Shown here piece after piece: positions 2,023-7,257 of a DNA stretch of 32,997 bases. The notes under the pieces are model-generated. The model did not search any database. It was given only the letters and a program-made list of their open reading frames with translations, and had not been told where the DNA came from. Positions within the stretch are counted from its first letter, which is position 1; each line of letters begins with the position of its first letter. The DNA comes from a virus, in the IMG/VR virus record IMGVR_UViG_3300037493_002835, positions 1 to 32,997 of that record; one strand, 5' to 3'. The position numbers and the translations under genes were made by a program.

Positions 2023-3768
2023 TTAATACGCCCCGCCCCCTAAACTTTTCAACGTCGTGTCCGTGTAATGTTCCAACTCCGCCAACGCCATGTATCTCAC
2101 CAAATCCGCAAAGTCTTTCGCTCCCGCTTTCTCCCCGCCGCGTCCCGTGTAGTTCGTCATCATCCAAATGATCTGCTTGCACTCGCGACTCACAAACAGC
2201 CGGGGCGCATTGGTCACCATGTCCAGCAGCTTCGTGTTGTCCCACCACAACAAATCGTTCACCACACTCAACCCGCGCTCCACATCCACCCCGCTCGCCG
2301 GCGTCAGAATCATCGGGTTCTTCCCATCCGCGAACTGATCCACCAGACACGTTCCGCCGTGCAATTCCATGTGCGGATTCCGCCCCGCCCTCGGATCAAT
2401 GAAGCGCTGGAAGATTTCTTCCTTGGAGGAGGGTGGCACGTTGCCACCCTCCAGCCGCAGCCACGTCTCCTTCATCTGGTCCACGCCCAACCCCAAACTC
2501 CGCTGCGCGCTGCCCGGTTTGCCGTCCGGCTGCGTCGGATCATCCGCCGGCACTGCCCATTCCCCATACGTCTGCGCGTCCGGCCAGTCCCGGTATATCC
2601 ACATCTTGCCGCCCGGCGTCACGCGCACCCATAACGTCGCCCAGTTGCGCGCCCCTGCCGGGTCGGTGAACATGTAGTTCGTGCCCTGCGTCGGAATATG
2701 TTTCGGGTCAACGATGTTCCACTCGCCGAACATCGGGAACGCTTTGTTCATCACGTCGCGCGCGTAGCCGTAGGCGTTCTCCTCGATGTAATGGCTCGGC
2801 CTGCCTTGACACAACGATTTTACCCCGGCGTAGTTCTCACCGAACACGTTGAACTCCGTGAAGAAATAAATCGCCGCTGTCTTGGGCCGTGTGCAGGTCT
2901 GGATGTAAGGCATGTGCCCCACCGGCAATCCGGGGATGTTCACCCGATCCGGCAACAATTCCGCAAACCGGCTCTCCACCGTCTCCGGTGTGCCCAACAC
3001 TTCCTTGATCGTCGTCGTGATGCCTTCCGTGGTGCTGAACGTCCACAGGATTTTACCGCTGCGCGTTGTGCTGCGGAAATCCAACGTCTCCAGCCACGGC
3101 AACGTCAGATTCTCGTCCGCCCACGCGCCGATGTTCGCCACGGGCGGCGCACCGTCCGCCACATTCGCGCCGATCTCCCACCCTTGAAACTCTTTCACGT
3201 CCTGGTTGTAGGTCAGGAAATGAATTTCAGTCCGATTCGGCAACACGAGGATGCCGTTGGCAAACCCGTTGGCGGGCGAGTAAGAGATTTTGAACACGCG
3301 CCGACGATCTTCTTTCCCGTTCAATCGTTTTAATTCCGGTGGCAGAAATTTCCAGATGAGCTTCTGTTGCGTGCTGATGCTCGTCCGCACGTTGTCTTGC
3401 ATACACCAGAGGATGCCGCGCCCGTGCGCCAGCGCGGACTGCACCACGCGCTTGGCTGCCCATTCAGACTTGGAAGCGCGCTTGCCGCCGGCCACGTAGA
3501 TGAGTTTGTGATCCGTCATCAACCGATCTGCATCCGGCCAGTTCGTCAACTCGAACCCGCACCGCAACGGATCCCCGTCCTCGCTCGCCATCAGGATGCG
3601 TTCCTCGCGTTCCTTGAACAACGCGGCCACCTGCGCCGGACCGTCCGGCTGCCGCAACACCGGCACGATCTCGGCATCCGTGAACCACGGCAGGAACGGA
3701 TGCGGCGTGGGCCGCCACGTCGCCCGCGCCACCTCCAGCAAGTCCGCCTCTGTGATGGTGTCAATCAT
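2023..3768 (-). CDS. terL: Terminase large subunit (packaging ATPase and nuclease)
   Basis: This is the motor that cuts concatemeric phage DNA and drives it into the prohead. The 581 residues match the usual size. The N-terminal ATPase shows a deviant Walker A, YVAGGKRASKSEW (residues 91-103), and a Walker B ending in acidic residues, IGAWADEN (213-220). The C-terminal RNase H-like nuclease begins at YMFTDPAG with Asp369, and further acidic candidates lie at FIDPR (Asp458) and around 495-505. The start ATG at 3768 overlaps the stop of the preceding small gene as ATGA, so translation is probably coupled. No classical small terminase is obvious. The three short genes before it and the 94-residue gene after it are the candidates. 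Confidence 0.93.
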   Translation of the reverse strand: MIDTITEADLLEVARATWRPTPHPFLPWFTDAEIVPVLRQPDGPAQVAALFKEREERILMASEDGDPLRCGFELTNWPDADRLMTDHKLIYVAGGKRASKSEWAAKRVVQSALAHGRGILWCMQDNVRTSISTQQKLIWKFLPPELKRLNGKEDRRRVFKISYSPANGFANGILVLPNRTEIHFLTYNQDVKEFQGWEIGANVADGAPPVANIGAWADENLTLPWLETLDFRSTTRSGKILWTFSTTEGITTTIKEVLGTPETVESRFAELLPDRVNIPGLPVGHMPYIQTCTRPKTAAIYFFTEFNVFGENYAGVKSLCQGRPSHYIEENAYGYARDVMNKAFPMFGEWNIVDPKHIPTQGTNYMFTDPAGARNWATLWVRVTPGGKMWIYRDWPDAQTYGEWAVPADDPTQPDGKPGSAQRSLGLGVDQMKETWLRLEGGNVPPSSKEEIFQRFIDPRAGRNPHMELHGGTCLVDQFADGKNPMILTPASGVDVERGLSVVNDLLWWDNTKLLDMVTNAPRLFVSRECKQIIWMMTNYTGRGGEKAGAKDFADLVRYMALAELEHYTDTTLKSLGGGAY

Positions 3769-4560: not shown

Positions 4561-5547
4561 TTATTCGCGCTCAGGTCGCTGAGCTTGGTCGTTCTCCATC
4601 ATTCGCGCCCATGCAGTTGCGACCACTGCTGGTATTTGTCCGTCGCCAAGGGCTGCAACCCGGTCCAGTCCACGGGCCACCCCATCAGCCACTCGACAAA
4701 GTTTGGATTCATCAGTTTGCCCAAGTTTTCCGGGATGATTTTGCCACCATCGTCCACGCACACAGCCGCGTTCAGTGGCAGACTGTTCCGATTGAATTGC
4801 TCCTTGCCGGCGGTGTTCTTCGAGTCGTTGACGGTTGGCGTCGGCCACACCCGTTGCCCGCGCTTGAAGGACACCGGATACTTCTCGGTATTCGTAGAGG
4901 TCGTCTTGTCCTGTTCCGATGCAGTCGCACTCATGCCAGTGGCAGTCACATTCGGGACACCACGGTTCTTCGCAGCACTCACACTCAAGCATGTCCCCGA
5001 TGTCTCGGACTCGTCGCCATTGTTGCTTTCCGACGATCCAAATTCGGCGTCTGACGTGGCTTGCTCCGACATCGAAACCGGATAGACAGTCCCATCGAGC
5101 ATCATACCCCGCCTCGGCCAGGTCTCGGAGGACTTGTCCGAAATAGCCGTGACTGCCGAGCAGTCCGACGACATTTTCCAAGAGGACATATTTTGGTTCA
5201 GCGAGGCGTATGGTTTCGATGGTTGCAGGCCATTGGTTTTTATCGCCAGTTCCGGCAGTGCCCTTGCCTGAGTGCATGTAGTTTGCGAGGGAAAATTCCT
5301 GGCACGGAAAGCCCGCCGATACGATGTCAACCACTCCGCGATATTGTGCTGCATATCCGTCCCGAACAAAGTCTCGGACATCGCCACAATAGACGGGTGC
5401 ATCGTCGAGAAACCCATCTGCAATGCGCTGGGCGAGCACACGGCAGCGGAGTTGTTCACGCTCGACGTAGCCGAGCGTGGTCCAGCCGAGGAGCTTGCTG
5501 CCAAGTAAGCCGCCGCCGCAACCAGAGAAAAGCGAAAGCTCACGCAT
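4561..5547 (-). CDS. dcm: DNA (cytosine-5) methyltransferase
   Basis: This enzyme transfers a methyl group from S-adenosylmethionine to C5 of cytosine. In phages it commonly protects the genome from restriction. The conserved motifs appear in order in 328 residues: motif I LFSGCGGGLLGSKLLGW (6-22), motif IV AGFPCQEFS with the catalytic Cys82, motif VI ENV (125-127), motif VIII HVRRRIWIVG (164-173) and motif X-like ALGDGQIPAVVATAW (299-313). In place of a long target-recognition domain is a cysteine- and histidine-rich block at 189-209, a possible zinc site. Before the IS insertion, the upstream small gene overlapped this start by eight bases (ATGCGTGA). A second open frame runs through almost the whole gene (see the next entry). 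No restriction enzyme partner is present. Confidence 0.92.
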   Translation of the reverse strand: MRELSLFSGCGGGLLGSKLLGWTTLGYVEREQLRCRVLAQRIADGFLDDAPVYCGDVRDFVRDGYAAQYRGVVDIVSAGFPCQEFSLANYMHSGKGTAGTGDKNQWPATIETIRLAEPKYVLLENVVGLLGSHGYFGQVLRDLAEAGYDARWDCLSGFDVGASHVRRRIWIVGKQQWRRVRDIGDMLECECCEEPWCPECDCHWHECDCIGTGQDDLYEYREVSGVLQARATGVADANRQRLEEHRRQGAIQSEQSATERGCVRGRWWQNHPGKLGQTDESKLCRVADGVARGLDRVAALGDGQIPAVVATAWARMMENDQAQRPERE

Positions 5548-5564
5548 AGATTTCGGCAGACCAT
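4599..5564 (-). CDS. Overlapping +1-frame ORF within the methyltransferase gene
   Basis: This 321-codon frame is open on the same strand as the methyltransferase, shifted by one base. Its N-terminal 60 residues are alanine- and serine-rich and look like translated noise. Later parts carry segments I associate with phage methyltransferase-linked proteins: SSWKMSS and SETWPRRGMMLDGTVYP (about 127-162), VWPTPTVNDSKNTAG (239-253) and KLMNPNFVEWLMGWPVDW (283-300), followed by LATDKYQQW. Both frames therefore look like known protein sequence over the same DNA. It may be a real overprinted gene, probably starting at an internal Met such as 62 or 71. It may also be a conserved shadow of the methyltransferase frame. 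I cannot decide without a substitution test. Confidence 0.35.
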   Translation of the reverse strand: MVCRNLCVSFRFSLVAAAAYLAASSSAGPRSATSSVNNSAAVCSPSALQMGFSTMHPSIVAMSETLFGTDMQHNIAEWLTSYRRAFRARNFPSQTTCTQARALPELAIKTNGLQPSKPYASLNQNMSSWKMSSDCSAVTAISDKSSETWPRRGMMLDGTVYPVSMSEQATSDAEFGSSESNNGDESETSGTCLSVSAAKNRGVPNVTATGMSATASEQDKTTSTNTEKYPVSFKRGQRVWPTPTVNDSKNTAGKEQFNRNSLPLNAAVCVDDGGKIIPENLGKLMNPNFVEWLMGWPVDWTGLQPLATDKYQQWSQLHGRE

Positions 5565-5568
5565 TTGG

Positions 5569-5576
5569 CTTCGTAT
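5569..5576. repeat. Target-site duplication of the IS element, left copy
   Basis: The sequence CTTCGTAT directly outside the left inverted repeat is repeated at 7014-7021 outside the right one. Eight bases is the expected duplication length for IS256-family insertion. The duplication fixes the element's borders and shows that it inserted as a single unit. Confidence 0.88.
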
Positions 5577-5604
5577 GGTTTTGTCCAGAAAACTGTGTAA
5601 GTGG
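5577..5604. repeat. IS256-family left terminal inverted repeat
   Basis: This 28-bp end matches the reverse complement of 6986-7013 at 21 of 28 positions. The inner 13 bases (ACTGTGTAAGTGG) are identical. That core is typical of IS256-family ends. Confidence 0.88.
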
Positions 5605-5739
5605 TTTTTTGTTTTGGTTTTTGTTTGTTCAATATCCCGGGCGTCAGCCGCGAGTTAAAATGAGCCGGGGGCGAGCGGCGAGCCCCAGCTCGCGCCCCCG
5701 GCGGTCAATGGTTCGTGAGTCGTTCTTCATCTCTTTTCC

Positions 5740-6957
5740 TCAGTCCAGCTTGGGCATCCGCTCCCCAAACTCGATCGCAAACCGATTCAACGCCTCGCTC
5801 CAGTTGGCGATCGGCATCGTCCACTTCTTGGCGATCCGCTCTAGGGCCAACCAGTATAGCTTGAGCAGCGATTCCTGATGCGGAAACACTCCTCGGTTCT
5901 TGCTGATCTTCCTCAAGGATCGGTTCACCGATTCTATCGCGTTGGTCGTGTAGATGGCTCGTCGTATCTCTTCAGGGTATTTCAGAAACATTACCAACTC
6001 CGCCCAGTGCGCCCGCCAGCTCTTGCTGATCGTCGGGTATTTGCGATCCCACTTGGCTTCAAATGCCACCAGTGCTTGCTCGGCTTGGGTCACCGTCGCC
6101 GCCCGATAGATCACTCTCAAATCCGCCGCCACAGCCTTGCGTTCTTTCCACCCCACATAGCTCAGGGAATGTCTCACCATGTGCACCAGGCACAACTGCA
6201 CTTGCGTCGCCGGAAACACCACTGCCATCGCTTCGGGAAATCCTTTGATCCCATCCACGCATCCAATGAAAATGTCCTTCACGCCCCGGTTCTTTAATTC
6301 CGTCAACACATGCTGCCAGAATTTCGCCCCTTCACTGCTGGCCACCCACATCCCCAGCACTTCCTTCTTCCCGGCCATCGTGATCCCCAATGCCAGATAC
6401 ACCGCCACCTTGCTCACCGTTCCGTTCTCTCGCACCTTGCCCCACAGCGCATCAAAATAAACAATCGGATACACGTCCTCCAACGGTCGGTTCTGCCAGA
6501 CCTGCACCTCCGCGCACACCGCGTCGGTCACTTGCGACACCAAACTCGGTGACACCTCCACGCCGTAGATCTCCAACAGGTGTCCCTCGATCTCACGCGT
6601 CGTCAGTCCTCGCGAATACAAGCTGATGATCGCCTGGTCAAACCCTTCAAACCGTCGTTGCCCCTTGGCCACAATCTGAGGTTCAAAGGTCCCGTTGCGA
6701 TCTCGCGGGGTCGCCAGCTCCATGCTCCCAAACTCTCCCTTGAGCGTCTTGGGTGTCGTGCCGTTGCGTGAGTTGCCGGTCTTTCGCCCGGCGGGGTCAT
6801 GCTTGCCGTAGCCCAAATGCACCGTCAACTCCGCCCCCATCGCTTTTTCAAGCAGTCGCTTCTGCAACACCTTAAGCAGCCCGTTCTGCCCCAGCAAATC
6901 CTCGGGCTTTTGATAATCCTTCAATAGTTCATCCAACACCGCTTCAGTTATGGCCAT
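5740..6957 (-). CDS. IS256-family transposase
   Basis: This DDE transposase of the mutator-like (Transposase_mut) group excises a copy of its element through a circular intermediate and inserts it elsewhere. The catalytic triad is visible: Asp169 (VYFDALW), Asp235 (GCVDGIKGF) and Glu342 (YTTNAIESVN). The C-x2-H signature of the group is at CLVHMVRH (256-262). At 405 residues it has the normal length, with no frameshift or stop. The start ATG at 6957 lies about 30 bp inside the right inverted repeat, leaving room only for a promoter in the end itself. It is transcribed in the same direction as the surrounding phage operon. Confidence 0.96.
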   Translation of the reverse strand: MAITEAVLDELLKDYQKPEDLLGQNGLLKVLQKRLLEKAMGAELTVHLGYGKHDPAGRKTGNSRNGTTPKTLKGEFGSMELATPRDRNGTFEPQIVAKGQRRFEGFDQAIISLYSRGLTTREIEGHLLEIYGVEVSPSLVSQVTDAVCAEVQVWQNRPLEDVYPIVYFDALWGKVRENGTVSKVAVYLALGITMAGKKEVLGMWVASSEGAKFWQHVLTELKNRGVKDIFIGCVDGIKGFPEAMAVVFPATQVQLCLVHMVRHSLSYVGWKERKAVAADLRVIYRAATVTQAEQALVAFEAKWDRKYPTISKSWRAHWAELVMFLKYPEEIRRAIYTTNAIESVNRSLRKISKNRGVFPHQESLLKLYWLALERIAKKWTMPIANWSEALNRFAIEFGERMPKLD

Positions 6958-6963
6958 AGTCTC

Positions 6964-7257
6964 CTATCCTCTCTCTTCGTTCTGGCCACTTACACAGTAA
7001 ACTCTACACATCCCTTCGTATCTCCTTTCGACTTCTTGGAGTTGCTGCGCCACACCATCCGCGTCGTAGTCGTAGATGTAGGCGGCGTCCCGGTCGTCAG
7101 TCCACGCCCAGTCTCCGGTTTTGCGGTCGCGGGTCATGTATTTCCCGTCCTCGCGTTTGATGAGCACTTTCTTGCCAGCGCACTCCTGGCTCATGTTGGT
7201 TGAGCGCGCCCAGGCATTGATTTCTTGCGGTGTCATATCTTCTTTATATTCGACCAT
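6964..7257 (-). CDS. Small phage gene whose 3' end is replaced by the IS end
   Basis: The reading frame begins MVEYKEDMTPQEINAW and is rich in charged and aromatic residues (GDWAWTDDRDAAYIYDYD). After RRYE the frame enters the IS right end and terminates with a foreign tail ending GQNEERG. Removing the element and one target duplication restores ...VERRYEAKWSAEIYA and a stop that overlaps the methyltransferase ATG (ATGCGTGA). The original product was thus about 90 residues and coupled to the methyltransferase. The start is uncertain: the ATG at 7236 has a slightly better ribosome binding site, and an upstream GTG or ATG is possible. Function is unknown. Only the last eight native residues are lost, so the product may still work. 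Confidence 0.65.
   Translation of the reverse strand: MVEYKEDMTPQEINAWARSTNMSQECAGKKVLIKREDGKYMTRDRKTGDWAWTDDRDAAYIYDYDADGVAQQLQEVERRYEGMCRVYCVSGQNEERG
6986..7013. repeat. IS256-family right terminal inverted repeat
   Basis: This 28-bp end is the partner of 5577-5604 and contains the identical 13-base core in inverted orientation (CCACTTACACAGT). The target duplication CTTCGTAT follows at 7014-7021. Confidence 0.88.

Follow-up and report, generated by a model that had tools for sequence, protein, structure and literature searches.

A virus-derived DNA of 32,997 nt (the window) contains a stretch that is open in two frames of the same strand, and the question is whether both frames encode proteins under selection or whether one merely reflects the other. 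The initial annotation described a C5-methyltransferase in frame 0 together with an open +1 frame rich in phrases familiar from phage proteins. It left two alternatives: either a whole protein family is overprinted on phage methyltransferase genes, or an annotated family is only a conserved shadow. Stop avoidance, codon choice and stand-alone copies of the +1 protein support overprinting. We consider it quite probable that the products of the two frames make up a single C5-cytosine DNA methyltransferase, a two-polypeptide enzyme of the M.EcoHK31I kind; there are no expression or enzyme data.

Two open frames on one stretch of DNA

Both open reading frames lie on the minus strand and were found where they had been reported, with 328 aa in frame 0 and 321 aa in frame +1. 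The alpha subunit gene (4561..5547, minus strand) encodes a 328-aa C5-methyltransferase polypeptide with motifs I-VIII and X, matched by PHROG_363 (E 5.6e-46) and by PF00145 (E 2.3e-26). The PF00145 match is confined to residues 1-178, and the Pfam and TIGR00675 matches end at residues 178 and 198, respectively. GFPCQ, LLENV, RRRIW and GDGQIP are found in alpha, which satisfies the expectation of motifs I, IV (PCQ), VI (ENV), VIII and X in PF00145 enzymes. The further expectation, that motif IX and the TRD occur in the same polypeptide as the PF00145 domain, is not satisfied. Frame 0 had been credited with all C5-methyltransferase motifs, but motif IX is absent there and sits only in the +1 frame. 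Because frame 0 is without this motif and the +1 protein provides it, alpha and beta are taken as halves of one enzyme.

The beta open frame, +1 relative to alpha, extends up to an ATG at 5564 (5564..4599, minus strand, 321 aa). Its start is most likely not this ATG but the GTG at 5543, as inferred from homologues, which at the equivalent codon have a conserved beta ATG, 4 nt downstream of the alpha start. The beta subunit gene so delimited (4599..5543, minus strand) encodes 314 aa. SETWPRRGMM, WPTPTVND and NPNFVEWLMGWP, previously picked out in the +1 protein, are all present in it. Both PHROG_1008 and PHROG_26627 are matched by the window beta and by all 75 aligned beta proteins. The former is labelled only "DNA methyltransferase" and the latter has no function; neither records nesting inside alpha.

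Several segments carry recognisable motifs in both frames. Motif IV of alpha, GFPCQEF with the catalytic Cys (5293..5313, minus strand), and RAFRARNFP of beta come from the same DNA, as the initial annotation had it. Across a 45-nt stretch covering this motif there are zero substitutions between the window and the homologous locus L001, whose alpha is 76% identical. The ENV of motif VI (5170..5178, minus strand) shares its DNA with beta SSWKM, a correspondence backed by codon choice in homologues, and motif VIII, RRRIWIVG (5029..5052, minus strand), was placed from the sequence and the comparison with L001. Beta motif IX, MNPNFVEWLMGWPVDW (4665..4712, minus strand), rests on a profile match and on the frame counts given below. 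Immediately after it comes the DNA of alpha motif X, DRVAALGDGQIPAVV (4621..4665, minus strand), which also encodes the beta tail GLQPLATDKYQQW and is supported by the substitution pattern.

An IS256/Mutator-type insertion occupies 5577-7013, with its transposase at 6957-5740 on the minus strand (Transposase_mut, E 3.8e-118). The element ends in imperfect inverted repeats and is flanked by an 8-bp target duplication, CTTCGTAT, at 5569-5576 and 7014-7021. The gene preceding alpha is broken by it some 11 codons short of the stop (YEAKWSAEIYA in the window; YGAKWTAEIYA in L001, where the gene is intact). Since the insertion lies just upstream, the alpha/beta pair may have lost a promoter or translational coupling, and the element may affect alpha/beta expression in the window.

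Tests against chance and against a shadow

If only the methyltransferase were translated and selected, the +1 "family" would be a by-product of conserved alpha residues. Alpha does force part of the resemblance: first and second bases are fixed in some alpha motifs, and codon shuffles that preserve the alpha protein, when scored with the beta profile, still have a median of 43 bits. A +1 run as long as that of the window appeared in 18 of 5000 such shuffles. When the window was scored with a beta profile that left out the window and its nearest relative, it earned 203 bits, against a shuffle maximum of 104 and median of 63, with none of 500 shuffles close.

The beta profile retrieved 80 IMG/VR loci and 80 loci from bacterial genomes. 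These first 160 loci were found via the beta motif and are therefore beta-ascertained, so separate alpha-ascertained sets were used as well. Taking profile-found and earlier loci together, 171 of 172 homologous loci have beta in this +1 frame. Among 151 full-length pairs, the beta core is free of stops in every one, where shuffles predict about 8 to be open, and the real beta score exceeds that of all 20 shuffles at each of the 151 loci (median 157 vs 43 bits). In the methyltransferase-ascertained sample, +1 beta is intact in 78 of 80 and broken in 2.

Stops were counted in 89 diverged representatives against the expectation from alpha-preserving shuffles. The +1 frame has 27 stops before motif V (100 expected), 0 over motifs V-VIII (102 expected) and 2 in the TRD region (61.5 expected). 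The +2 frame, used as a control, has stops overall near or above expectation, with 264 vs 280 over motifs V-VIII and 367 vs 374 in the TRD region. The codon tests use no tree model and depend on keeping representatives under 70% identity and on control regions within the gene.

Codon choice was tabulated by column in 98 representatives with less than 70% identity. Alpha Asn-2 is AAT in 61 of 66 sequences (22 expected), which places an ATG four bases downstream of the alpha start; this 4-nt offset between alpha and beta starts occurs in 52 loci, and every other offset in no more than 3. Further along the gene, GTG is used for Val at motif VI in 58 of 58 (13 expected), giving the Trp of beta SSWKT, and GCC for Ala in 72 of 74 (24 expected), giving the Pro of beta TWP. 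One homologue column has Ile as ATA in 41 of 60 (5 expected), and another residue, Gly, is GGG in 86 of 94 (12.5 expected). To judge from these columns, alpha codons are chosen to suit beta from the beta start codon onward. Over beta residues 1-105 the constraint is patchy, with variation persisting at alpha third positions. Pairwise substitutions dominated by third positions had at one stage led to the N-terminal half of beta (SSWKT, TWPRSGM) being read as a shadow; the per-column codon choice overturned that reading.

Substitution positions were compared in 79 pairs. Over motifs I-VIII there is the usual excess at alpha third positions. From motif VIII to X, pairs of 85-96% amino acid identity have rates of 0.171, 0.023 and 0.010 at alpha positions 1, 2 and 3, an excess at first positions of alpha codons, equivalent to third positions of beta codons. 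At motif X the pattern is back to the alpha frame. Because the position excess moves and then returns at motif X, the conserved frame changes from 0 to +1 and again to 0 along the DNA, and alpha between motifs VIII and X looks, by this measure, like an unconserved linker. By the substitution pattern, conservation passes to the beta frame beginning with WPTPTVND of beta (4824..4847, minus strand).

Between the window and L001 the switch falls at about alpha residue 226, behind a Cys-rich insert, and from there on alpha first-position substitutions prevail. The insert, CECCEEPWCPECDCHWHECDC (4921..4983, minus strand), follows motif VIII and has the pattern CxCCxxxWCPxCDCHxxxCDC, conserved in L001. 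It evolves in the alpha frame, third-position substitutions dominating at alpha residues 181-225, and it looks metal-binding.

Selection on both frames across homologues, a criterion for dual coding, is satisfied, and the comparisons indicate that beta is no shadow. Avoidance of stops combined with alpha codon choice, substitutions at beta third positions where alpha is not conserved, the shuffle comparison at all 151 loci, and the separate beta gene of mycobacteriophages leave the shadow reading scarcely tenable. The outcomes that the initial annotation had listed as refuting went the other way: synonymous variation in frame 0 is strongly bent rather than normal, stops are missing from the beta core, and copies of the +1 protein with little or no overlapping methyltransferase exist (Peaches gp76, Ashwin gp6 and a second beta in locus L133).

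Movement of motifs between the two frames

Across the methyltransferase-ascertained sets, motif IX was found in frame 0 in 77 loci, in frame +1 in 94 and in both frames in 0. The counts are pattern-based, and 53 loci were scored as having neither. Boundaries between the chains also move. Alpha stops after motif VIII in L121, L159 and L167, where motifs IX and X are on beta; in L330 the WVEWLMG motif is in frame 0, followed by motif X. In the mycobacteriophages Peaches, Artemis2UCLA and Ashwin, the annotation gives alpha and beta a gene each, with beta downstream; the two genes share 23 nt in Peaches and in Ashwin. One DLane polypeptide matches PHROG_363 (alpha) as well as PHROG_1008 (the C-terminal part of beta). 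Moving boundaries and tandem or fused forms are much easier to reconcile with beta as the C-terminal portion of a C5-methyltransferase than with beta as an unrelated protein.

A complete single-chain enzyme could in principle also be produced from such a locus by programmed frameshifting, with a +1 shift after motif VIII and a shift back before motif X. The conserved motifs do change frame twice along the DNA, and the partly fused arrangements in L178, L185 and L330 are in keeping with it. We nevertheless regard this as very improbable, since constraint on beta already sets in at the beta start codon, which precedes any shift site, and each chain would need two shifts. Moreover, alpha and beta of mycobacteriophages are annotated as separate genes, and M.EcoHK31I consists of two polypeptides (PMC3404938).

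L178 (Gordonia phage MelBins) and L185 (Mycobacterium phage DLane) show yet another distribution over the frames: an LPTP-repeat TRD lies partly in +1, its remainder being in frame 0 with motifs IX and X. L133 has a second beta (2728-3699) downstream of an intact alpha/beta pair, and the alpha frame of this second copy retains only motif X; the second beta is possibly an alternative specificity subunit.

Characterization of the beta protein

The beta segment containing SSWKM and SETWPRRGMMLDGTVYPV (5064..5231, minus strand) lies over alpha motifs V-VIII and is constrained at the codons of the matching alpha columns. AlphaFold2 predicts two beta hairpins in it, with strands at residues 113-124 and 146-155 of a low-confidence model. 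The beta motif IX profile aligns with RLTPxECERLQGFPD of single-chain C5-MTases at E 3.4e-4, with a probability of only 38%.

Searches of Pfam and NCBIfam with beta gave no match, nor did PDB sequence searches with beta alone and with the 75-row beta profile. Two AlphaFold2 models of beta alone are of low confidence (mean pLDDT 59 and 55), and Foldseek and VIA-align found no PDB fold match for the first of them. These weak models neither support nor refute a fold, and their weakness may be what one should expect for half an enzyme. In the absence of a fold match, the TRD assignment of beta rests on position and conservation. An out-of-frame HNH endonuclease was considered as the identity of beta and rejected: with no Pfam match, there is no HNH domain in the beta sequences tested.

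A second +1 overprint on single-chain enzymes

A different +1 ORF, designated Q, occurs on single-chain phage C5-methyltransferases with in-frame motif IX. It has a median length of 162 codons, covers motifs V-VIII plus about 54 codons beyond, and follows the pattern QLTLFSxEEPPANPS...GRWxxSGMGSPTE...FLSxKACxGILRRAxKRGKxLP. Carriers are L346-L425, L284, L308, L310, L328 and L426 (2219-2713, P1 dmt). In 41 genes, two central stretches of Q have 0 stops each, against 17.8 and 43.4 expected, and the region just upstream of them has 3 against 17.1. Outside Q, +1 stops are at expectation (146 vs 148 and 125 vs 132). Codon constraint on Q begins where stop avoidance begins, and Q is sharply delimited.

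Relatives of Q are found in the +1 frame of P1 Dmt and of methyltransferases from a Vibrio phage and a Roseobacter phage. The length of the ORF alone is unremarkable in P1 (69 of 1000 shuffles as long) and in the Roseobacter phage (50 of 1000); in the Vibrio phage it is remarkable (0 of 1000). Single-chain enzymes with a Q overprint apparently include P1 Dmt. Separately, in L268 and L272 alpha is truncated, and its +1 frame contains two distinct ORFs, one Q-like and one beta-like.

Q covers the same alpha motifs as the N-terminal half of beta does, and a weak profile similarity links the two, which suggests, without proving it, that overprinting preceded the split. We tentatively propose, at slightly less than even confidence, that +1 overprinting is general among phage C5-methyltransferases and predates the split enzyme. 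The split would trace back to a frameshift that fused the overprinted frame with the target-recognition region and with motif IX, so that the overprinted protein became a subunit of the very enzyme that it overprints.

The notion of beta as a genuine overprinted protein with some other job (regulator, homing endonuclease or anti-defence) gains something from the finding that enzymes already equipped with in-frame motif IX are overprinted by the N-terminal part of beta and by the related Q, and from the published out-of-frame HNH endonucleases within phage methylases (PMC11855218). Such a role is very unlikely: beta has motif IX exactly when alpha is without it, motif X is able to move into beta, and a PADLOC search returned nothing.

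Model of a two-polypeptide methyltransferase

In the two-polypeptide model that we favour, alpha (frame 0) would contribute the SAM-binding and catalytic motifs I-VIII and a C-terminal motif X. Beta, read in +1 from a start four bases after that of alpha, would begin with a poorly conserved N-terminal region, followed by what is probably the target-recognition region, with its SSWKT hairpin, TWPxxG and WPTP repeats, and then by motif IX. Alpha and beta would together form an active enzyme for the methylation of phage DNA, probably as protection from host restriction. At the level of sequence, we have demonstrated that both frames are selected, that motif IX is absent from alpha and present in beta, and that beta homologues occur as a separate gene and also partly in frame with the methyltransferase. 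Translation of beta, assembly, specificity from the region upstream of motif IX and the biological role are inferred, as is the need for both polypeptides in methylation, for which there are no assay data. Beta models poorly and has no fold match, so a small-domain fold has not been shown. This counts against the model, as do the lack of expression and enzyme data, the patchy constraint on beta residues 1-105, the placement of the M.EcoHK31I TRD in the large subunit (PMC3404938) and, in the window, the insertion element that may affect expression.

The nested arrangement is widespread in phages and almost always annotated as one gene, and many phage and prophage C5-methyltransferases are apparently two genes annotated as one. 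Some annotators did draw nested genes, as in Paenibacillus phage Diva (gp50, "g49 internal gene"). Cloning frame 0 alone or recoding it would destroy beta, and an inactive enzyme is predicted; a specificity assigned from alpha only would overlook the part responsible for recognition. The family is a rare natural series, comprising single-chain, tandem-split and nested-split forms and motifs that move between chains. With two nearly full-length overlapping proteins, both measurably selected, the origin and upkeep of long overlapping genes become directly testable.

Comparison with known systems

The nested two-polypeptide C5-methyltransferase is already known as a kind. In M.EcoHK31I the small-subunit gene is nested in the large-subunit gene in another frame, and the window beta gene is likewise nested in alpha in another frame. 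The M.EcoHK31I beta is 176 aa, whereas beta here is about 230-450 aa (314 in the window) and spans nearly all of alpha. M.EcoHK31I (YGGCCR; Lee, Kam and Shaw 1995) has a large polypeptide with motifs I-VIII and X and a smaller one with motif IX (PMC3404938), a division that the window matches. Its TRD is placed in the large subunit (PMC3404938), in contrast to the conserved variable region here, which is read in the beta frame. A literature search, outside which most subscription journals fell, found no report of the phage breadth, of full-length dual selection, of motif movement between subunits or of the Q overprint.

The ShiLan insertion is an out-of-frame HNH endonuclease inside actinophage methylases (PMC11855218), and resembles the present case in that a second gene is hidden in another frame of a phage methylase. 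It differs in being a homing insertion with an HNH nuclease, whereas beta is no insertion and has no HNH match.

M.AquI (CYCGRG) likewise has two polypeptides, split within the variable region. Its beta carries both motifs IX and X, unlike the window, where motif X is in alpha and the AquI-type arrangement is not met. The genes of Peaches, Artemis2UCLA and Ashwin and the loci L121, L159 and L167 are M.AquI-like, and motifs IX and X are both in beta in L121, L159, L167 and L174.
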